Below, piece after piece: positions 34 through 6,819 of a stretch of 6,819 bases of DNA. A program made the position numbers and the translations under genes. Below the pieces are notes generated by a model. It was not told the origin of the DNA, ran no database searches, and worked only from the letters and a program-made list of their open reading frames with translations. Position 1 is the first letter of the stretch. The number at the start of each line of letters is the position of its first letter. Source of the DNA: Actinomycetota bacterium (GTDB taxonomy: Bacteria > Actinomycetota > Thermoleophilia > Solirubrobacterales > 70-9); contig JAFDWD010001078.1 in assembly GCA_018268695.1 (NCBI GenBank), forward strand, positions 1 through 6,819. Direction: 5' to 3'.

Positions 34-106
34 GCCGCTATCGTCTAGGGGACTAGGACGCCGGATTCTCAGTCCGGAAACCGGGGTTCGAATCCCCGTA
101 GCGGTA
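34..106 (+). tRNA. tRNA-Glu (anticodon CTC)
   Basis: All four arms can be folded by eye. The acceptor stem pairs 34-40 with 99-105 (one G-U pair at the end), the D stem pairs 43-46 with 56-59, the anticodon stem pairs 61-65 with 73-77, and the T stem pairs 82-86 with 94-98 around the TTCGAAT loop. The anticodon loop is TTCTCAG, with CTC at 68-70, so it reads GAG codons as glutamate. The discriminator is A106 and the CCA end is not encoded (CTCC follows). It is 73 bases long with a short variable loop. It has its own -10 box upstream and an intrinsic terminator at 127-150, so it is probably transcribed alone. The 3' half of a tRNA gene is a common integrase target, but no integrase gene is visible in this window. 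Confidence 0.96.
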
Positions 107-126
107 CTCCAGATGTAGAGCGAAAT

Positions 127-249: not shown

Positions 250-939
250 TCAGCCGTTGAGGTGGAGCAGCGCCAGAAATTCGGCGACGACCTGATCGGG
301 CGTGGCCCAGCACTCGCTGGCGGAGAACCTCTCGACGACGCGTATTCCGTGTTGGCGAAAGGCGCGGTCGCGTGCATGGTCCTCGTGTGCGCTCTCGGGC
401 GGGTGGAACTCGTCGCCGTCGACCTCAAGGATGCCGACCTTCCCCTCGACGAGGACCAGGAAGTCGGACTCGCGAGTCTCCCGGAGGTCGGGAACTGTGC
501 CAAGCCGAGCGCGGCAATTCGGCCAGAAGGCGACGTTCACCCGGTCGAGCGCGGCAGCCATCCGGCACTCGGTCTTCGAGCGGAAGAGCATCCCGCGCCA
601 CCGGTAAGGCGCGGCGATCCCCTGGTTGCTCCACGATCGACCCGGCCCGGGCGCGAGGCTCCATTCGTTCAGATGACCGTCGAGCGCCTCCCCGAGGGCC
701 CAACCGATGGTTCTTTCATTCGTGACGGCGCCGGAGAAGAGGTCTCCCGGGACGGTCAATCTGGCGATCGTCCGCGGGTACCAGTGCGGATAGTCGGAGC
801 CGATTGGGGCGAGCGAGTAGTCCGGTTCCTGCCAGACGTCCAGTCTCGATTCGTGGACCAAACGGGCGAGAGCAGGGTCGCCGTTTCCTTCAATGAACCC
901 GGCGGCCCAGTCAAGTGGGGTCGGTTCGCGCATCGCCAC
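250..939 (-). CDS. DUF559-type PDDEXK endonuclease-fold protein
   Basis: The 229-residue protein has an N-terminal part I do not recognise (residues 1-110) and a C-terminal half that reads like the DUF559/Vsr-like branch of the PDDEXK fold. Visible marks are the SKTE helix (E124), ESDFLV (D159), LEVDG (E172, D174), then H179, an H-x2-D-x3-R stretch around D187-R192, and VVERF at 201-205. The active-site pattern is E...D...ExD rather than the commoner ExK; family knowledge says E-x-D occurs in this branch, so nuclease activity is plausible but not shown. The start is taken as GTG at 939; an ATG two codons later (933) is the alternative. No ribosome site is seen, but TAGTCT lies six bases upstream, suggesting a leaderless start. 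The gene is divergent from the zinc-knuckle gene and runs toward the tRNA. Related proteins occur as stand-alone genes in high-G+C genomes, often with no known role. Confidence 0.8.
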   Translation of the reverse strand: MAMREPTPLDWAAGFIEGNGDPALARLVHESRLDVWQEPDYSLAPIGSDYPHWYPRTIARLTVPGDLFSGAVTNERTIGWALGEALDGHLNEWSLAPGPGRSWSNQGIAAPYRWRGMLFRSKTECRMAAALDRVNVAFWPNCRARLGTVPDLRETRESDFLVLVEGKVGILEVDGDEFHPPESAHEDHARDRAFRQHGIRVVERFSASECWATPDQVVAEFLALLHLNG

Positions 940-1052: not shown

Positions 1053-1268
1053 ATGAGCTCGAATATCGAAGTGCAGGTCCGCGCAGAATGCGACCGCTGC
1101 GATGGGACCGGCAAGGTCCCGCTTCCCCACGGGCAGGTCAGCCCGGGAACCGGAGAGGGCGAGCGGCGTTGTCCTGTGTGCGATGGGGCTGGAGGCGGCG
1201 AGGCGTCGGGCTGGATGAGTCGCGAACAGTTTGAGGAGAGTTATCCCGCGTCTGACGTGAGCAGCTAG
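1053..1268 (+). CDS. Small two-knuckle (CxxCxGxG) zinc protein
   Basis: This 71-residue protein carries two copies of the DnaJ-type zinc knuckle: CDRCDGTG (residues 13-20) and CPVCDGAG (40-47). Together the four cysteines can bind one zinc ion, as in the DnaJ central domain and in many small stand-alone zinc proteins of actinobacteria. There is no J domain, signal peptide or membrane segment; the C-terminal 20 residues are polar and acidic. The reading frame stays open upstream to 915, but that stretch is antisense to the endonuclease-like gene and looks non-coding, so the ATG at 1053 is chosen, supported by the -10 box seven bases before it. Its TAG stop shares the palindrome CTAG with the stop of the convergent gene. 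Metal binding is well supported by the motifs; the biological role (nucleic-acid binding, chaperone-like or structural) is unknown. Confidence 0.75.
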   Translation: MSSNIEVQVRAECDRCDGTGKVPLPHGQVSPGTGEGERRCPVCDGAGGGEASGWMSREQFEESYPASDVSS

Positions 1269-1786
1269 GCGCTGCGCAGAACCGTCGCCTGCTGGCGACC
1301 CGAGAAGTCGACACCGGGATAGAAGGAGTCGAGGATCTCCTCCCAGGTGGGTAGCGGGCCCTTCGATCTCACGCGGCGACGATCGCCGCTGTAGTCCCAG
1401 GCGTATTCCTCGCCGTCTTGGCTGCGGCCGTAGGCGAGGGCCTGGAAGGATTCGTCGATCTGCAGGTCAGTGGCAAACGAGGCGATCTCGTCTGGTCGAA
1501 GGAAGCCCAGGCTCGCTTGAACCAACGCATCGGGCGTTATTACGAAGAATCCGACCCGAGTAGCGAGAGCGTTGCCTGCATTGAGGACCGTCACCGCTGC
1601 GGTCCCATCTACTGCTCCCGTGCCTTCGGTCCGGCCGACCTCGATGTGGAGGACCGGAAGGCGAGAGTCGCGGACCAAGCGTCGCGTCTGCAGGACGGCG
1701 GCCCAGGAAGCCACCGCTGCCGCAGCGGCGACCAGGGTGCTTGCGAACTGCAGCCAGGAGCCGGAGGTGGCGGAGAGGGGGATCAT
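1265..1786 (-). CDS. Single-pass membrane-anchored protein of unknown function
   Basis: The 173-residue product opens with a short polar stretch and one alanine-rich hydrophobic segment (about residues 11-32), followed by TRRLVRDSR. By the positive-inside rule, the rest of the protein would face the cytoplasm. Residues 44-110 look like a beta-rich domain with a VLNAGNALATRV stretch, a pattern often seen in small membrane proteins that end in a beta-sandwich; residues 110-173 are polar. No catalytic motif is visible. The start ATG at 1786 overlaps the stop of the upstream gene (ATGA), so the two are very likely translated together. The frame stays open upstream to 2131, but that part is arginine/glycine-rich and lies inside the neighbouring gene, so it is rejected. 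The final stop is embedded in a CTAG shared with the convergent zinc-knuckle gene. I cannot name the family. Confidence 0.72.
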   Translation of the reverse strand: MIPLSATSGSWLQFASTLVAAAAAVASWAAVLQTRRLVRDSRLPVLHIEVGRTEGTGAVDGTAAVTVLNAGNALATRVGFFVITPDALVQASLGFLRPDEIASFATDLQIDESFQALAYGRSQDGEEYAWDYSGDRRRVRSKGPLPTWEEILDSFYPGVDFSGRQQATVLRSA

Positions 1787-2802
1787 CGGGCCTGCCGAAG
1801 CTTGACCAGCGAGAAGAGCCCGTTTTCCCGCTGTTCGGCCCGCTCGCCGAGCGCGGCGACGATGCCGGCAGCGGGGCCGAGTGCCGCCCCAGCGATTGGA
1901 ACGAACGAGACTGCCACGTTTACCGCTTCCCTGCCGACCACCTCCGGCAGGTTGACCTCGGTTTCCAGGAGCGCCGCTGCCAGCGCATCCATGACCGAAC
2001 CTTTGACCTTCTCGAGGTAATCCGCGACGTCCCCGGGTTCTTCGACCAGGGCTTTCACCTCGAATTCGCGCAGCAGGGCACGAGCCTCGACGCTTCCCGG
2101 ACGCTCTCGATGTTCGGCGATCACCTCCCAAGGAAGGTGGCCCAAATCGGGAACCAGGAACGCTAAAGCGTCGGCGCCGGTCCCTCGCAGGGTGGGGGAG
2201 TCTTCGATCATCCGACCGAACATCGGCGTCACGTTGATGGCGGCTCCTAGGACGGCGGCGAAGAGGGCGTCGCGTGCCAGGGCCTTCGCGGCGAAGTCGA
2301 CCTGCATCGGCGAGAGTCCCTCGTCCTCTATCCGGCCGGCGAGCTCGCGAGCAGCCTGCGCCATCGGCGTCGCGAGGTTCTGCAGGGTCTCGTCGGTCGG
2401 GGTGGCGATGCCGAACCAGGGAACTTCAAGCGCCCGCAGCTCGTCGATCGCCGCCGAGTGCCACTGTGCTTTGTAGGCCTCCATCACCATGGTCTCGCCG
2501 ATCGTTCGCATCTCCTTGGCCCCCTCCCCGGGGGCGTCTTCAGTTCCGATCGCGATCACCATCGACTCGCCGGGCCCTGCAGGAGCGCGGGCTTCCTCAA
2601 GGTCCTCTTTAGTCAGTTCGTGGCGTGGGCGGTGCATCGCCCAGTTCATCTTCTCGCCGACGGTGGCGATCAGCTGCCCATCCTCGAAGAGGATTTCCTC
2701 AAAGAGGACGGCACCCTCCTTCGCGCGGGCCATCGGGGTCAGCTGGTTGGGGTCGGCGAAGAACTCGACGCTTGACCTCAACGGAAAGTAGAGCCGGCTC
2801 AT
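1783..2802 (-). CDS. Unrecognised 339-residue protein, first gene of a two-gene operon
   Basis: I do not recognise this protein with confidence. It begins MSRLYFPLRS and has an early FEEILFEDGQ stretch (35-44), a long helical, alanine-rich middle (140-190), PDLGHLPWEVIAEHRERPG at 218-236, and a C-terminal hydrophobic, glycine/alanine-rich segment (about 293-318) that could insert in or lie on a membrane. The opening and the LPWEVIAEHR stretch faintly recall uncharacterised families found beside phage-defence genes (DUF6236-like), but that is only a resemblance. There is no nucleotide-binding or nuclease motif. The start is the ATG at 2802; a weak GGGA lies about 12 bases upstream. The gene is divergent from the KAP NTPase gene 41 bases away, so they share a control region. 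Its stop overlaps the start of the membrane-protein gene, implying coupled expression and possibly a complex. Confidence 0.72.
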   Translation of the reverse strand: MSRLYFPLRSSVEFFADPNQLTPMARAKEGAVLFEEILFEDGQLIATVGEKMNWAMHRPRHELTKEDLEEARAPAGPGESMVIAIGTEDAPGEGAKEMRTIGETMVMEAYKAQWHSAAIDELRALEVPWFGIATPTDETLQNLATPMAQAARELAGRIEDEGLSPMQVDFAAKALARDALFAAVLGAAINVTPMFGRMIEDSPTLRGTGADALAFLVPDLGHLPWEVIAEHRERPGSVEARALLREFEVKALVEEPGDVADYLEKVKGSVMDALAAALLETEVNLPEVVGREAVNVAVSFVPIAGAALGPAAGIVAALGERAEQRENGLFSLVKLRQAR

Positions 2803-2843: not shown

Positions 2844-4964
2844 GTGCGCGGATCGAAAGTTCATCCCAGTGGATACGCTTTTTCTGTGTCTGAGGGGGAA
2901 CCTGTCAGCGGCTTGTCTGCCGACCAGCCCATCAGGGGGGCCGGGGAAGACCTGCTGGGCCGCGGGCTGCTGGTCGACCTACTAAAAGATGAGATCCGAG
3001 GCGCACCCACGAACGATGGGTTCGTCATGGCTCTGACCGCCCCATGGGGAGAGGGAAAGACCTCGGTCTTGAACCTGGTTGCGGATGGATTGGCTGACGA
3101 GATGGTCGTCATTCGCTTTAACCCGTGGCTCTATTCCGACACTGAAGCGCTCGTCATTCGTTTCTTCGGCGAACTCGGAGCCCAAGTCCAGAAGAACCAA
3201 AGCCTTCGCCGTGTCGGAAAACACCTCCTTTCGTATGGGCAATCGCTGGCTCCTCTGGGCTCACTACTGGCTGGTCCGGCTGCAAGCGTCGCGGGCCAAT
3301 CCCTTGCAGCGTTGGTCGCGCTGGGAAGTAGAGGGGTAATTGAGGAGGGCGAGCAACTGAGAAACGCGCTTCTCCAGAGGGAACGAAGGATCCTTGTCCT
3401 AGTCGACGACATCGATCGCCTCCATCCCGACGAAATCCTCGATGTCTTGCGTCTGGTGAAGCTGGTTGGCGACCTGCCGTACGTGACCTACCTGCTGGCA
3501 TTCGATCGTCCCTACGTCGAGGGCGCCCTAGGAAGGGGGACCCAGTTCGGCGGACGCTCCTATCTGGAGAAGATGATCCAAGTCAGTTATGACCTTCCCG
3601 CGATCCGCCCGAGCGAGCTCGAAGGGATATTGCTGGCGAAGCTGAACGCCGTGATCTCCAGGCTGGAGTATCTCCCGATAAATGACGTTCGGTGGTCCGA
3701 ACTGCTGGGGCGAGGAATCGCCCCCTTCTTTAGGAATCTGCGGGACGTCGCTCGCTACGTAAGTGGTGTGTCGACCAGGGTCCGATTGTTGGGACAAGAG
3801 GTTGCGTTGGAGGACATCCTGGGCCTGGAGGTACTCCGTGTGTTCGAGCCAGAGGTACACCAGAAGCTTCCTGGTCTTGTTGACGCGTTGACCAAACAAC
3901 GGACCGATCTATTCATCAACGAGGACACGACGACAAAGCGGGAGCAAGGGCAGATCGCCGAGCTCCTCGCAGCTGCCTCCGAGCCTCGGCGAGATCAGGT
4001 CAGGGTTCTCTTGGGCCAGCTCTTTCCACTCGCATTCGAATCACACTTTGGTCGAGATCGCCATGTTCCCAACGAGTGGCGAGCAGCTAGGCGCGTGGCC
4101 TATGCGCCAGCGTTTAGGGCGTATCTCCACGCCACCCTTGATCCAGGCGCGGCTAGCTATGCCACGGTCACTGAAGTGGTCGAGGTGTTTGGACAACGCG
4201 ACAAACTGCGGGATTTACTGGCGAATTTGCAGGCCGAGCAGCTTGGGGACCTTGTCCAGCGCTTCCCGGACTTCGCGAGCCGGGTCAACCCGGCCTCGAT
4301 TTCGTCGGGCATCTCTGAGCTACTTCGCACGCGACATCGCCTCTCGGACGAGTGGGAAGGTCTGCGACCTGCTCCACAGCTATTTCTCAAGAGGGCGATG
4401 CAGAGCGCCGCAGAAGTTCTGCCGAAAGGCGAGGACCGGGAAGCTGCACTCCGACACGCCTTTGACCTAGCCGAGACCGATTCCGACCGTTACGCGATTT
4501 TTCTCTGGTTTGGCACGCATCCGCAGCGTGGGAGGAAGGAGTCAGGTGAATTCCTCAGCGAGGCCGTCACCCAGGAACTCGAAGAGGATCTGCGCGCTCG
4601 TTTGCGACTCTGGGACCTCAAAGATCTCATGGGCGAGGACGAATTCGCTTGGTTGGTAGTTCTGGCCTATGGCCATGACGAGGAAGGTAGACGCAGACTG
4701 GACGAGCTCGCCGACGACGCTTGCTGCCTGGCTCTTCTGCGGTCCTGTGTTGGCTTTTCGATCGATGGCCAGTCGTCTTTCAGTGTCGCGAAAGCCGAAC
4801 ACCTCTTCGAGCGGCCAGTTCTTAGCCGACGGGTAGCGCGTATGGGGAATGGCGATCTCTCCGAGAACGACCGAAATCTCCTCGGGATGGCCGAGCGTGC
4901 TCTCGCTGACCTCTCCCAGGCGAAATTCGAGGAGCAGGGCGGCTCGCCGGCCAGTCAGAAGTAG
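2844..4964 (+). CDS. KAP-family P-loop NTPase
   Basis: This 706-residue protein shows the KAP (Kidins220/PifA) signature. DQPIRGAGEDLLGR (28-40) is the usual opening, followed by Walker A APWGEGKTS (66-74), with Ala instead of the first Gly. RFNPW (91-95) is a family hallmark, Walker B is LVLVDDIDRL (184-193), then AFDRPYV (219-225), YLEKMIQ (240-246) and NLRDVARYVSG near residue 300. Between Walker A and B lies a weakly hydrophobic insert (128-163), the place where KAP proteins often carry membrane helices. The C-terminal 380 residues are helical and not recognised. KAP members are membrane-associated ATPases; PifA of plasmid F blocks phage T7, so a defence role is possible but unproven here. 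The start is uncertain: GTG 2844 lies 13 bases after GGAGG (2826-2830), while GTG 2886 has TACGCT six bases upstream and would be leaderless. Sampled lines are 55-57% G+C against 73% in the Xre array, hinting at a different origin. Confidence 0.9.
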   Translation: MRGSKVHPSGYAFSVSEGEPVSGLSADQPIRGAGEDLLGRGLLVDLLKDEIRGAPTNDGFVMALTAPWGEGKTSVLNLVADGLADEMVVIRFNPWLYSDTEALVIRFFGELGAQVQKNQSLRRVGKHLLSYGQSLAPLGSLLAGPAASVAGQSLAALVALGSRGVIEEGEQLRNALLQRERRILVLVDDIDRLHPDEILDVLRLVKLVGDLPYVTYLLAFDRPYVEGALGRGTQFGGRSYLEKMIQVSYDLPAIRPSELEGILLAKLNAVISRLEYLPINDVRWSELLGRGIAPFFRNLRDVARYVSGVSTRVRLLGQEVALEDILGLEVLRVFEPEVHQKLPGLVDALTKQRTDLFINEDTTTKREQGQIAELLAAASEPRRDQVRVLLGQLFPLAFESHFGRDRHVPNEWRAARRVAYAPAFRAYLHATLDPGAASYATVTEVVEVFGQRDKLRDLLANLQAEQLGDLVQRFPDFASRVNPASISSGISELLRTRHRLSDEWEGLRPAPQLFLKRAMQSAAEVLPKGEDREAALRHAFDLAETDSDRYAIFLWFGTHPQRGRKESGEFLSEAVTQELEEDLRARLRLWDLKDLMGEDEFAWLVVLAYGHDEEGRRRLDELADDACCLALLRSCVGFSIDGQSSFSVAKAEHLFERPVLSRRVARMGNGDLSENDRNLLGMAERALADLSQAKFEEQGGSPASQK
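2874..2879 (+). promoter_or_regulatory. Possible -10 box for a leaderless KAP start at 2886
   Basis: TACGCT fits TAnnnT and ends six bases before an in-frame GTG at 2886 (residue 15 of the longer reading). The spacing equals that at the endonuclease-like gene. If real, the KAP protein begins at 2886 and is 692 residues long. No clear -35 box is seen. Confidence 0.35.
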
Positions 4965-4975
4965 GCTCCTCCGAA

Positions 4976-5176
4976 ATGGCTGTCGACCCCAGGGAGAAGG
5001 CTCGTGAGACCTTGCGGCGTGCGCAGGCGGAGTACGAGCAGGATGCCGCGGCCGTCAAGGAGGCTAGACAAAGGGCGTTTGCTGAGGCCAAGGCAGCTGG
5101 CCTCTCGCTCCGCGAAATCGCCAAAGAGGTCGGCTTGCACTATTCGCGAGTGAGCGAAATCCTCAGAGGCAAATAG
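4976..5176 (+). CDS. Small helix-turn-helix DNA-binding protein
   Basis: The 66-residue protein has a charged, helical N-terminal part (residues 4-40, possibly a short coiled coil for pairing of two chains) and a C-terminal helix-turn-helix at about 42-64. GLSLREIAKEVGL is the first helix and turn, and HYSRVSEILRGK the recognition helix. It starts 11 bases after the KAP stop and is on the same strand, so it is probably co-transcribed and may regulate that module. No good ribosome site precedes the ATG, so translation may depend on ribosomes leaving the KAP gene. The protein ends 10 bases before the perfect inverted repeat at 5187-5209, making that site a plausible target for it as well as for the downstream Xre proteins. 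It is not an Xre paralogue: the LLDGI-W-P tail of the downstream genes is absent. Confidence 0.78.
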   Translation: MAVDPREKARETLRRAQAEYEQDAAAVKEARQRAFAEAKAAGLSLREIAKEVGLHYSRVSEILRGK

Positions 5177-5186
5177 AGGTACGAAT

Positions 5187-5209
5187 AGTGTTGGGGAAAA
5201 CCCAACACT
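5187..5209. repeat. Perfect 9-bp inverted repeat, candidate operator
   Basis: AGTGTTGGG (5187-5195) and CCCAACACT (5201-5209) are exact inverse complements around a GAAAA spacer. The repeat spans the -35 region and part of the spacer of the promoter at 5191-5220, the classical place for a repressor site, and is flanked on both sides by genes for HTH proteins. It is not followed by a T-run, so it is unlikely to work as an intrinsic terminator. A second, weaker inverted repeat, CACTC (5206-5210) with GAGTG (5217-5221), overlaps both this element and the -10 box. Confidence 0.7.
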
Positions 5210-5220
5210 CATGCTAGAGT
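5191..5220 (+). promoter_or_regulatory. Promoter of the winged-helix/Xre operon
   Basis: TTGGGG (5191-5196) as -35 and TAGAGT (5215-5220) as -10 are 18 bases apart, and the TG at 5212-5213 makes the -10 an extended TGcTAgagT. Transcription would start near 5227, leaving a leader of about 65 bases that contains a strong hairpin and the ribosome site. The candidate operator palindrome covers the -35 box. Based on consensus and position, not on experiment. Confidence 0.6.
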
Positions 5221-5237
5221 GCCTGCGCAGACAAAAA

Positions 5238-5270
5238 GTGCCCCCGCGACGCTGGAACGTCCGGGGGCAT
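5238..5270 (+). promoter_or_regulatory. Leader RNA hairpin just upstream of the ribosome site
   Basis: TGCCCCCG (5239-5246) pairs with CGGGGGCA (5262-5269), and inside it GACG (5248-5251) pairs with CGTC (5258-5261) around CTGGAA. The result is a 12-bp stem with one bulged C (5247), extendable by a G-U pair at 5238/5270. It ends six bases before AGGAGG. No T-run follows, so it is not a terminator; it could protect the message or tune ribosome access. Confidence 0.6.
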
Positions 5271-5275
5271 GGCAC

Positions 5276-5281
5276 AGGAGG
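5276..5281 (+). promoter_or_regulatory. Strong ribosome-binding site (AGGAGG)
   Basis: A consensus AGGAGG ends 10 bases before the ATG at 5292 and fixes that start, ruling out the in-frame ATG at 5211 that would lie inside the promoter. It is the strongest ribosome site in the window. Confidence 0.75.
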
Positions 5282-5291
5282 CATAGCTCCC

Positions 5292-5603
5292 ATGCACCCG
5301 CAACATAATCCGGGAGGCGCATCCGCGCCTTCCCGGCGCGCCGAGCGCAGCCCGCAGGAGATCTACGAGTCCGAACAGCGAGGGCTCCTCGACCTTCTGC
5401 TGAAGGAGTTCCCCGGCGTCCTCACCCACCGCGAGGCCCTCGTCGCCAGGGTCGACGACCCCGAGGACTTCGGCCAGTCCGACCGCTTCGGCAACGCGGC
5501 CCGTGGCCTCGTCGCCTCCGGTCTCGTGATCCGCCAGGGCGAGCTGGTGATCCCGAGCCGCCCGGCCCGCGAGATGGTCGTCCTCGGCTGGGAGCTCGGC
5601 TGA
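5292..5603 (+). CDS. Small winged-helix-like protein, first gene of the Xre operon
   Basis: The 103-residue protein has a disordered, Pro/Gly/Arg-rich head (1-22) and then a compact domain. Helix LLDLLLKEFPG (32-42), helix THREALVARV (45-54), a likely recognition helix FGNAARGLVASG (66-77) and a two-strand wing LVIRQGELVIPS (78-89) follow the order of a winged helix. It is probably a DNA-binding or protein-binding adaptor, not a member of the Xre family that follows. The start ATG is set by AGGAGG ten bases upstream. The stop TGA at 5601-5603 overlaps the next ATG by one base (TGATG), so it is coupled to the first Xre gene. Being first in the operon and under the palindromic promoter, it may partner or antagonise the Xre proteins; that is inference. 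The fold assignment is by reading the pattern only. Confidence 0.72.
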   Translation: MHPQHNPGGASAPSRRAERSPQEIYESEQRGLLDLLLKEFPGVLTHREALVARVDDPEDFGQSDRFGNAARGLVASGLVIRQGELVIPSRPAREMVVLGWELG

Positions 5604-5893
5604 TGGTCGAGGCCACCGGGACCGTGACCGAAGTGATCGCCCGGCGGGTGAGGCGCCTGCGCCGCGACCAGGACCTGAGCCAGGAAGCGGTCGCCGAACG
5701 GGCCGAGATCCACCGCACCCAGATGACCCTGATCGAGCGGGCCGAGCGCCTGCCGCGTATCGACACCATGATCAGGCTGGCGGGCGCCCTCGGGGTCTCG
5801 CCCGCCGAACTCCTCGACGGACTCGTCTGGAGGCCGGGCATCCACAGCCCGGGCCGGATGATCGTTCCCGAGAAGGACCCCCGTCGTGGCTAG
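5603..5893 (+). CDS. Xre-type HTH protein, tandem copy 1
   Basis: The 96-residue protein is a single Xre/HTH_3 domain. Helix 1 is VIARRVRRLR (11-20), helix 2 LSQEAVAERA (25-34), recognition helix IHRTQMTLIERAER (36-49), and helices 4-5 run through MIRLAGALGVSPAELLDG (56-73). After W76-x-P78 comes a tail with GRMIV (84-88), which aligns with a short strand in the other three copies. GGGAG lies eight bases before the ATG, which overlaps the previous stop by one base. Such proteins bind short operators, usually as dimers. No effector domain is present, so it is probably a plain repressor or activator. It shares with copy 2 the 13-base string CCACCGCACCCAG in the recognition-helix codons (5712-5724 and 5991-6003). 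Its stop TAG lies inside an 8-base overlap with the next gene. Confidence 0.9.
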   Translation: MVEATGTVTEVIARRVRRLRRDQDLSQEAVAERAEIHRTQMTLIERAERLPRIDTMIRLAGALGVSPAELLDGLVWRPGIHSPGRMIVPEKDPRRG

Positions 5894-6179
5894 CCTCCGC
5901 CCGCCCTCGACCCGCTTCGCCGCGAACCTGCGGCGACTGCGTGCCGAGGCGGGCTACTCCCAGGAAGAGGTCGCCTTCCGTTCCGCCGTCCACCGCACCC
6001 AGGTCAGCCTGCTGGAGACGGGGGAGAGGATGCCCCGCGTCCTCACCCTGGTCTGCCTGGCCGGAGCGCTCGGCGTCACCCCGGACGACCTCCTCGACGG
6101 GATCACCTGGGAGCCGATCGTCTCGGTCACCGGCGGCCTGACCGTGAGCCCGCCGGAGGGAGATGCCGAGGATGTCTGA
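5886..6179 (+). CDS. Xre-type HTH protein, tandem copy 2
   Basis: The 97-residue paralogue of copy 1 has helix 1 FAANLRRLRA (11-20), SQEEVAFRS (25-33), recognition helix VHRTQVSLLETGER (35-48) and the helix 4-5 block LVCLAGALGVTPDDLLDG (55-72). W75-x-P77 is followed by a tail with GGLTV (83-87). The GTG start is chosen because AGAAGGA lies eight bases upstream and because the frame gives the full family N-terminus; it overlaps the stop of copy 1 by eight bases (GTGGCTAG). The recognition helix differs from copy 1 at only a few positions, so both may bind the same or related sites and may form mixed dimers. One oddity is C57, where copies 1 and 4 have Arg and copy 3 Lys. No other domain is present. 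Confidence 0.9.
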   Translation: MASLRPPSTRFAANLRRLRAEAGYSQEEVAFRSAVHRTQVSLLETGERMPRVLTLVCLAGALGVTPDDLLDGITWEPIVSVTGGLTVSPPEGDAEDV

Positions 6180-6459
6180 GGGGAGGACGGACAGCCTCGT
6201 CGCGGAGCGGATCGGCGCCAACCTCAGAAGGCTCCGCGCGGCGGCCGGGATCAGCCAGGAGGAGCTGGCTTTCCGCGCCGGCATCCACCAGTCCGAGGCC
6301 AGTCTCATCGAGGGCGGTCGACGAGTCCCTCGCGCGAGGACGCTGATCAAGCTCTCCGGCGCTCTCGGCGTCACGATCGACGACTTGGTCGACGGCATCA
6401 CCTGGGATCCATCCCGTGGCTTCGGCGTCTCCGAGGACGGGGAGGACCCGGGTGCCTAG
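6172..6459 (+). CDS. Xre-type HTH protein, tandem copy 3 (divergent recognition helix)
   Basis: This 95-residue paralogue has IGANLRRLRAAAG (14-26), SQEELAFRAG (28-37), recognition helix IHQSEASLIEGGRR (38-51) and LIKLSGALGVTIDDLVDG (58-75). W78-x-P80 is followed by a short tail with RGFGV (82-86). The recognition helix begins HQSEAS where the others have HRTQ or HRTE, so this copy may have changed its DNA target. The ATG at 6172 is preferred over the one at 6163: GGGAG (6158-6162) is nine bases upstream of it, and it reproduces the 8-base overlap seen at the neighbouring junctions (here ATGTCTGA). Starting at 6163 would add only three residues. As a single-domain protein with no effector part, it probably acts only by binding DNA or by pairing with its siblings. 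Confidence 0.88.
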   Translation: MSEGRTDSLVAERIGANLRRLRAAAGISQEELAFRAGIHQSEASLIEGGRRVPRARTLIKLSGALGVTIDDLVDGITWDPSRGFGVSEDGEDPGA

Positions 6460-6763
6460 GCGACCCCCGGAATCGGTCGCCCGCCGCTTCGGGGAGAACC
6501 TCCGTCGGGTGCGGCGGAGGGAAGGGCTCTCCCAGGAGGAGCTGGGCCGGAGGGCCTCGCTCCACCGCACGGAGATCGGGAAGCTGGAGAACACGGAAAG
6601 GGTCTGCCGGATCGACACCCTGATTCGGCTCGCGGGGGCGATGGCCGTCCTCCCGGCGGAGCTTCTCGACGGGATCGTCTGGGTCCCTGCACCCGAGACG
6701 GAAGGAGCGTTCACCTTCAACCGAAGGCCATTCAGCAATCAACGAAGAGGAGAAGAGAGCTAG
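6452..6763 (+). CDS. Xre-type HTH protein, tandem copy 4
   Basis: The 103-residue last copy has FGENLRRVRRREGLSQ (13-28), EELGRRASL (29-37), recognition helix HRTEIGKLENTER (38-50) and LIRLAGAMAVLPAELLDG (57-74). W77-x-P79 is followed by a tail with GAFTF (85-89) and an extra basic end, RRPFSNQRRGEES. The GTG at 6452 is chosen because GGAGGA (6441-6446) is five bases upstream and it again overlaps the preceding stop by eight bases (GTGCCTAG). The frame is open upstream to 6416, but that ATG lacks a ribosome site and would lengthen the overlap. C52 replaces the proline found after the recognition helix in the other copies (VCR versus LPR, MPR, VPR), and AMAV replaces ALGV. The basic tail could add nonspecific DNA contacts. 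Confidence 0.9.
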   Translation: MPRRPPESVARRFGENLRRVRRREGLSQEELGRRASLHRTEIGKLENTERVCRIDTLIRLAGAMAVLPAELLDGIVWVPAPETEGAFTFNRRPFSNQRRGEES

Positions 6764-6798
6764 GACCAGACGGCGAGAAACGAGAGAGCAAGAAAGAC

Positions 6799-6819
6799 AT
6801 GGATCCAGGCCAGGTGACC
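6799..6819 (+). CDS. Possible start of a further gene (partial)
   Basis: An ATG at 6799 opens a frame (MDPGQVT) that runs off the right edge. It lies 35 bases after the last Xre stop on the same strand, and a purine-rich stretch with AAGAAAG (6790-6796) ends two bases before it, too close to be a good ribosome site. It may continue the operon, but only seven codons are visible, so no product can be suggested. Confidence 0.3.

Follow-up and report, generated by a model that had tools for sequence, protein, structure and literature searches.

Why would a mobile genetic element keep several near-equivalent DNA-binding regulators in one tightly overlapping row of genes? The question is raised by contig JAFDWD010001078.1 from an Actinomycetota bacterium of the order Solirubrobacterales (assembly GCA_018268695.1), all 6,819 nucleotides of which were analyzed and are referred to here as the window. 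At positions 5603-6763, the window carries four tandem genes for single-domain Xre-type proteins, copies 1 to 4, headed by a gene for a winged-helix protein (the head gene). Comparison with related loci indicates that this row is real, conserved and most likely part of a mobile defense element, with the copies being old specialists. The explanation that we consider likely overall is that the row belongs to the regulator operon of a tRNA-integrated, mobilizable anti-phage element, with an antisense RNA encoded at its head; the most unusual result is the shared, predicted antisense RNA module at this place.

The layout set out in an earlier note on this DNA is borne out by the open reading frames (ORFs) and Pfam: four tandem single-domain Xre ORFs are present, with start-to-start steps of 283, 286 and 280 bases and three 8-base overlaps (GTGGCTAG at 5886-5893, ATGTCTGA at 6172-6179 and GTGCCTAG at 6452-6459), and every copy is preceded by what looks, by eye, like a purine-rich ribosome-binding stretch of the Shine-Dalgarno (SD) type. 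All four proteins pass the Pfam cut-offs for HTH_3 and HTH_31, with HTH_3 scores of 32.6-54.4 bits against a cut-off of 23, which places them in the Xre/HTH_3 family; identity to copy 1 is 45-47% for copies 2-4. For copies 3 and 4, starts farther upstream are also available and would give overlaps of 17 and 44 bases. The 8-base choice is backed for copy 2 by the matching junction sequence in two related loci (L001 and L053) and for copy 4 by ATGCCTAG ahead of the last copy in L053; comparison with relatives favors neither candidate start for copy 3. The head gene adds one upstream gene to the operon and overlaps copy 1 by a single base (TGATG). Overlaps of 1, 4 and 8 bases are usual operon spacings, a 4-base ATGA/GTGA overlap being impossible with a TAG stop, and both 4- and 8-base junctions are common across the related arrays.

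The search of relatives for Xre arrays that the earlier note called for recovered the equivalent operon, in which the number of copies ranges from one to four. A profile built from all four matches 104 of the 399 genomes of the class of G001 (E up to 1e-10; top 12 candidates scored per genome), and 42 loci were read closely, namely the window, L001 and 40 fetched loci, about half of them picked for tandem matches. At least two Xre matches in a row or fused were found in 22 of the 42, some of them partial, stop-split or weak; because the loci were largely picked for tandem matches and scoring stopped at the 12 best candidates of each genome, no array frequency is claimed. The closest genome locus is L001, from the Actinomycetota metagenome-assembled genome SZAS-9 (for the identity of copy 2, see Table 1); among the matches listed for copy 4 (at least 120), two are Solirubrobacterales and two are Actinobacteria by name. 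The middle slot of the array is empty in L054, L061, L064 and L071, holds one gene in L001, L053 and L056, and two in the window, and the one-base overlap between the head gene and copy 1 recurs in the window and in all seven of these loci. Comparison shows the head gene and two to four Xre genes to form one overlapping operon.

At most junctions of the related arrays, separate ORFs can be taken to overlap or abut; gaps occur in L077, in L081 and at one junction of L060. In the clade of the window, an 8-base overlap, picked by us among candidate starts, is seen at 10 of 15 junctions (three in the window, one of two in L001, two in L053, one of two in L056, and one each in L061, L064 and between copies 2 and 3 of L059); the remainder include an overlap of 20 or a gap of 7 in L071, overlaps of 4 in L054 and L072, and others of 14 and 20. 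Outside this clade, the 4-base overlap is the most frequent; overlaps of 1, 8, 11 or more bases also occur, as do the gaps in L077 and L081. An in-frame TAG at 8377-8379 of L001 lies within the third Xre copy, which is either broken or misassembled.

The genes around the array give it its setting. The window contains, in order, a tRNA-Glu gene, a gene for a PifA-like protein and other cargo genes, a small helix-turn-helix (HTH) gene denoted c5, the head gene and the array, with the contig ending 56 bases after copy 4. The same layout is found in L071, where a tRNA-Met gene is followed by cargo, c5, head gene, array, a TrwC relaxase, a weak HTH_17 match, an integrase and a 44-bp repeat. In L053, whose element spans about 14 kb, a tRNA-Met gene is followed by a tyrosine integrase, HTH_17, a TrwC relaxase, array, head gene, c5, TIR and AbiU genes and a closing 43-bp repeat. 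A tRNA gene and a direct repeat thus bound an integrase and a relaxase in L053 and L071; the window has the tRNA gene only. Replic_Relax proteins are encoded in L001 and L056, and in L054 HTH_17 and integrase genes directly follow the array. A tRNA gene was detected in 10 of the 15 relatives scanned and its 3' part recurs as a direct repeat of 31-46 bp in five of nine relatives tested (43 bp in L053, 44 in L071, 46 in L054, 40 in L073 and 31 in L074). Defense models of PADLOC were matched in four elements: PifA in the window (full-length match to residues 24-679 of 706, 1.1e-57, which establishes PifA membership), TIR and AbiU in L053, PDC-M55C in L061 and PDC-M68B in L001; the proteins of the relatives had been picked after Pfam hinted at defense, and one of the four cargo proteins of the window matched.

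Several observations pull the other way. The window contig is 6819 bases long and in itself contains no integrase, relaxase or second attachment site, as it stops before the place where transfer genes would be expected; a second tRNA-Glu repeat was not found in it, and no tRNA repeat was found in five of the 10 sources tested (the window, L064, L067, L075 and L087). Two cargo proteins of L071 and one of L056 matched no Pfam family. On balance, the operon very probably belongs to a mobilizable element with anti-phage genes that has integrated at a tRNA gene. Two further arrangements were observed in relatives: about 2.5 kb between a tRNA-Arg gene and the 31-bp repeat in L074 (1765-4351) contain a leader, a head gene and a single Xre gene and might represent an element of very small size, and in L054 the tRNA-Arg 3' repeat occurs three times (6209, 13427 and 14617), suggesting two elements in tandem.

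The best surviving alternative, albeit an unlikely one, is a lysogeny-type switch, in which the copies would serve a phage or phage satellite as repressors of the CI/Cro kind. Five short relatives (L054, L061, L064, L073 and L075) have an Xre gene on the opposite strand upstream of the operon, and in all five the operon is followed by a small HTH gene and an integrase-cluster gene (Pfam-tested in L054 only); furthermore, an Xre gene of L058 overlaps an integrase-like gene. Against these parallels, the relaxases point to conjugative mobilization, and no phage structural family was found among the proteins of the window and relatives that were scanned with Pfam, which do not cover whole elements. 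Structural genes or phage relatives, as expected around a temperate phage immunity region, were not found for the part of the element that is present. Viral origin as such was also considered and rejected: the DNA matched none of 50,697 phage records, and IMG/VR yielded 37 loci with a best protein match of 50% identity.

In the window, two small genes, c5 and the head gene, lie directly ahead of the array. The head gene family is present in 24 of the 42 loci and, in 19, ends no more than 60 nt before the first Xre domain; a protein search retrieved 61 relatives. AlphaFold predicts a winged helix for the head gene protein (pLDDT of 81 for the best model and 51-61 for the other four), sequence searches found no solved relative, and Foldseek gave no match below E 0.001, the best being a MarR winged helix (0.029). 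In one class of elements, the position immediately ahead of the operon is conserved for c5. The putative -35 region of the operon promoter is covered by a perfect palindrome, the core of which seems to track the helix of c5: SRIGQIIEGK goes with TCTAGA in L053 and L071, and SRIAQIIKGE with CTCGAC in L085. As a lead, c5, rather than the array, may hold the operon promoter, and may repress it at the palindrome. Among the six elements compared, however, L001 and L056 have no palindrome by the rule used.

For the Xre copies themselves, no operator was identified: across the six elements, the palindrome at -35 seems tied to c5 and not to the copies. A generic scan called no promoter or terminator in 4900-6819. 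The search for array operators covered 14 stretches for inverted repeats, namely the region just after the array in the window and in each of 12 relatives, and one more stretch in L053. A candidate operator is an inverted repeat that short relatives have in common between the array and the excisionase-integrase genes, ACGGACC-5-GGTCCGT in L054 and, in an imperfect form recognized by eye, in L064, L073 and L075; L053 and L071 have ATCACC-4-GGTGAT in common (by eye).

The 5' leader of the head gene contains a hairpin that, read on the opposite strand, resembles the end of a small RNA: the A-rich sense stretch before the hairpin becomes a U run after it. When the 42 loci were searched with a covariance model from eight leaders, 26 matches were obtained (E up to 0.1), of which four represent the opposite strand of the same hairpins. 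In an alignment of leaders fitted to the structure, 95.0% of the predicted base pairs are paired versus 78.2% after shuffling, with none of 500 shuffles reaching the observed value and slid controls not exceeding 55.1%. Two-sided changes occur in 16 of 17 pairs in this structure-fitted alignment and in six of 17 in an unfitted alignment of eight rows. On the opposite strand, a TAnnnT motif is located at +8 to +16 of the coding sequence (0-based) in 86 of 91 leaders, compared to 0-1 of 91 in eight control windows; it falls in several codon phases and in unrelated proteins. These 91 are the leaders, out of 101, with a placeable start and enough flank, and kinship among them was not corrected for. 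The module would consist of an antisense promoter in about codons 4-7, an RNA body over the ribosome site and a terminator hairpin in the 5' leader.

Could the hairpin instead act on the sense strand, for example, by hiding the ribosome site, with no antisense RNA made? The sense strand of the window folds as well (z -2.66), and a second hairpin pairs the SD sequence with CUCC just ahead of the AUG. Nevertheless, the antisense strand of the window has a z of -4.13 and antisense folds are lower in 40 of 41 leaders; A-C mismatches, which would pair on the antisense strand only, outnumber G-U ones 26 to 7, some by shared ancestry; and the opposite-strand TAnnnT motif in 86 of 91 lies outside the RNA model. 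In addition, an antisense RNA over such a leader, scr4677, has been published (PMC3896431). A sense-strand element with no antisense RNA is, on these grounds, improbable.

An antisense RNA is probably made, judging from pairing, strand bias and the promoter motif combined. It would be a cis-encoded RNA that starts inside the head gene and ends at the leader hairpin, and would tune the head gene and, through coupling, the array; that it does so as a translational brake is a tentative proposition, somewhat on the doubtful side. Weighing against the antisense reading, the alignment that yields 16 of 17 covarying pairs (A7) was fitted to the structure and then counted, and no antisense -35 element was found (16 of 86 versus 1, 8, 12 and 13 of 86 in controls). 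In an Rfam search of the window, the tRNA was the only credible match.

The leader module extends far beyond the Xre arrays. A wider model (E up to 0.001) has matches in 110 of the 399 genomes of the class and in 51 of 296 from the phylum, genomes of 7-10 Mb among them; the RNA models were run on class and phylum genomes only, and weak matches may be due to chance. Genes behind the leader in a first scan were DDE transposases in L107, L111, L112, L116 and L117, integrases in L106 and L108, a bare Xre gene in L105 and, by eye, a transposase-like frame in L115. We then compiled 60 leader regions and scanned 49. The class list supplied 40 of the 60, taken approximately from the best rank downward while passing over loci already in the set and several more, and the phylum list supplied 20, with large genomes first, whereas the 11 regions left unscanned had no start or an ORF below 60 amino acids (aa). 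Pfam matches at 1e-3 included five DUF772 transposases (with DDE_Tnp_1 in three), two Phage_integrase proteins and an integrase N-terminal domain in L191, along with two SWIM proteins and one each of Cas1 (L162), LAGLIDADG (L184), DUF2637, MarR and HTH_36; most of the 49 downstream ORFs, winged-helix head genes among them, belong to no Pfam family. DNA-mobility genes are therefore prominent behind the module, and confinement to mobile DNA is not claimed. The leader of L180, from a 9-Mb genome, had no match in plasmid records. A separate observation is that the protein directly behind the leader in L162 (214-1518, in a 1.8-Mb genome) combines a zinc-finger-like part with Cas1 (Cas_Cas1, 2.3e-47), possibly a Cas1-based mobile integrase.

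We modestly favor the view that these leaders represent one phylum-wide family of cis-antisense RNAs shared by unrelated mobile machinery of Actinomycetota, with scr4677 as a stray studied member. If that is the case, unrelated elements may have converged on, or exchanged, a single form of RNA control of their own expression.

What, then, is the origin of the four copies? In a tree of 84 copies, from which partial or weak Xre matches, among them the third copy of L001, were left out, one group (99/98) unites the first copies of nine arrays with copy 2 of L059, and another (89/96) unites the last copies of seven arrays with the single copy of L063. In a tree of 26 copies, each of the position groups, FIRST, MIDDLE and LAST, requires one change; the MIDDLE group was named, and L059 copy 2 and L063 were assigned, once the larger tree had been seen, and the 81 alignment columns are few. 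Positional groups also appear, for several copies, in a second array type (L060, L062, L066, L068 and L069). Since the copies group by position and not by locus, they are ancient differentiated paralogues rather than products of recent unit-by-unit duplication, and comparison shows the first and last Xre proteins to be two ancient, distinct subfamilies held in place. The copies are closer to orthologues elsewhere than to their neighbors, the second half of what the earlier note named as counting against local amplification; the first half, scattered loci, was not found, as the orthologues lie in equivalent arrays. The first junction is inherited, given that nearly the same sequence occupies the same position in L001 and L053, and the 8-base junctions are in part inherited together with position.

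The variable middle of the array could alternatively be an immunity repertoire, with the middle copies being captured repressors of other elements that block rivals and the array growing by capture. The empty, single or double middle slot fits this scenario, as do close relatives of copies 2 and 3 that stand alone, follow fusion proteins or overlap an integrase gene (L079, L057 and L058). It is nonetheless a rather remote prospect, considering that ordinary divergence gives the same pattern and that the MIDDLE group was named with the tree in view. Least probable is the earlier note's proposal of recent local amplification, whereby one Xre gene was copied here unit by unit and carried the overlaps along. 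The similar steps, the identical overlap lengths and the exceptional L065, with its duplicated two-gene block (copies 1 and 3, and 2 and 4, are sisters), speak for it. Against it, every window copy has its closest neighbor in the tree in a different element (for copy 3 by a slight margin, 1.04 versus 1.22 to copy 2), and the junction of copies 1 and 2 is nearly the same elsewhere (GTGGCTAG in the window versus ATGGCTAG at the equivalent junction of L001 and L053). A single clade of the four is rejected (p-AU, from the approximately unbiased test, 4e-48), which refutes the proposal for the whole set; a sister pairing of copies 2 and 3 is rejected weakly, at the borderline (p 0.0465).

The old paralogues differ in the recognition helix and largely share a C-terminal region. 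This helix contains HRTQ in nine of 10 FIRST copies and RTE in all eight LAST copies (HRTE in six), and the L, G and W of the C-terminal LLDGIxWxP region are identical in all 18; the helix presumably makes the DNA contacts and the tail the dimer face, an assignment that we map from C proteins and 434 Cro. L057 encodes two consecutive proteins with four Xre matches each and other HTH-like segments, followed by a single MIDDLE-type Xre protein, with 4-base overlaps; L058 encodes the end of a multi-Xre protein and, elsewhere, the Xre gene that overlaps the integrase-like gene, by 8 bases. The four-Xre proteins of L057 and the largely shared LLDGIxWxP region combined with the Q/E helix switch make joint action of the copies plausible. 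The Xre proteins might be C-protein-like dimers with related but not identical DNA specificities, and coupled translation, which is consistent with the conservation of the junctions, would deliver them in fixed proportion. Mixed oligomers are a speculative possibility, somewhat less likely than not. Together, the Xre proteins would set the activity of the adjoining relaxase, excisionase and integrase genes.

Table 1. Features of the window and, in the last line, of locus L057 (positions in the respective sequence)
Feature	Positions	Strand	Description	Basis
tRNA-Glu (CTC)	34-107	+	candidate attachment site at cargo end	ARAGORN, Rfam
Weak DUF559/REase-like cargo protein	250-939	-		Pfam 17.3 bits, below cut-off 20.6
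Weak SLATT_1-like cargo protein	1265-1786	-		Pfam 17 bits, cut-off 26.3, on longer frame 1268-2131
Cargo protein without family	1783-2802	-	339 aa	ORF, Pfam, PADLOC
PifA-like KAP P-loop NTPase	2844-4964	+	cargo; anti-phage exclusion family	Pfam KAP_NTPase 8e-36
Small HTH protein c5	4976-5176	+	kept just upstream of operon in one element class	cluster 5, 6 loci
Perfect 9-bp-arm palindrome, candidate operator	5187-5209		AGTGTTGGG-5-CCCAACACT; over -35 region	
Putative operon promoter	5191-5220	+	TTGGGG, 18, TAGAGT	read from sequence
Predicted antisense RNA	about 5231-5296	-	across 5' leader and start codon of head gene; ends estimated	covariation, strand test
Predicted antisense 3' end	hairpin 5270-5238, U run 5237-5233	-		
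Putative antisense -10 element	5302-5307	-	TATGTT, within codons 4-6 of head gene	
Head gene c2	5292-5603	+	103-aa winged-helix protein	gene clusters, AlphaFold
Xre copy 1	5603-5893	+	96 aa, FIRST group	ORF, Pfam, trees
Xre copy 2	5886-6179	+	97 aa, MIDDLE group	82% identical to L001 counterpart
Xre copy 3	6172-6459	+	95 aa, MIDDLE group, divergent	26-copy tree
Xre copy 4	6452-6763	+	103 aa, LAST group	protein relatives, 26-copy tree
L057 fused Xre proteins	4196-7767		583 and 607 aa, four Xre matches each, 4-base overlap	

With these comparisons, an odd row of genes becomes a recognizable, recurring control unit of mobile elements that are able to carry defense genes. The range from one to four copies, the fusions and the positional subfamilies provide a natural series for asking what an element gains from a set of nearly equivalent repressors. 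Provided that it is transcribed, the antisense RNA that these leaders share would offer a single point of access to the expression of mobile genes throughout Actinomycetota, and it could account for what scr4677 is.

Our literature search, judged by titles and the beginnings of abstracts, found no paper on tandem Xre arrays of Thermoleophilia or of actinobacterial integrative elements, and the components have better known counterparts. The C proteins of restriction-modification systems are dimers that exert feedback control. C.AhdI and C.BclI share with the copies a single-domain Xre fold of about 75-100 aa and are their nearest solved sequences (C.BclI 3.9e-11, C.AhdI 6.9e-11). Unlike C proteins, the arrays have several differentiated copies per operon and a C-terminal GIxWxP tail past the aligned part, and Pfam found no methylase family among the proteins of the window or the 20 proteins of relatives that were scanned for it, so that the linkage of C proteins to restriction-modification genes is not seen here. 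Integrative elements of actinobacteria of the pSAM2 and SLP1 type resemble the elements described here in integrating at tRNA genes and in keeping integrase and excisionase genes beside small regulators; they differ in that the elements analyzed here have a positionally conserved Xre array, a winged-helix head gene and defense cargo. The RNA-OUT of IS10 and CopA, which control transposition and plasmid copy number, are antisense RNAs over a ribosome site with a GC-rich, small-loop hairpin, as predicted for the leader module; in contrast to them, a single family would here be common to unrelated recombinase types and regulators.

The closest counterpart of the module is scr4677 (RF02673) of Streptomyces. 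Hindra et al. (PMC3896431) found this antisense RNA to be conserved and expressed at a high level; it is about 70 nt long, starts 14 nt upstream of SCO4676 and shares 37 nt with the SCO4676 5' leader. Some of the published results tell against a regulatory role of the kind proposed above: the authors expected no pairing of scr4677 with the ribosome site of SCO4676, could not measure an effect on translation and, upon overexpression, observed a similar or slightly reduced SCO4676 transcript. To this can be added that RF02673 has no match in the window (E up to 10) and leaves six of 10 other leader loci unmatched (E up to 1). The published scr4677 results have lowered our estimates for the brake and, slightly, those for the explanation favored overall and for the family-wide reading. 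The published start also differs by about 20 nt from the position predicted here, an offset that would vanish if the start of SCO4676 were annotated too far downstream, and the module here precedes transposases, integrases, Cas1, LAGLIDADG and Xre/winged-helix operons. RF02673 exceeds its cut-off of 41 in two of the 10 other leader loci (L179, 50.9 bits; L180, 148.4 bits) and falls below it in L096 and L138 (30.6 and 31.7 bits); in all four, it matches the strand of the downstream gene, opposite to the published strand of scr4677, and RF02673 may have been filed on the wrong strand. Both the published RNA and the one predicted here are antisense, about 70 nt long and overlap the 5' leader of a gene for a DNA-binding protein; scr4677 may be the one described member of the leader module.

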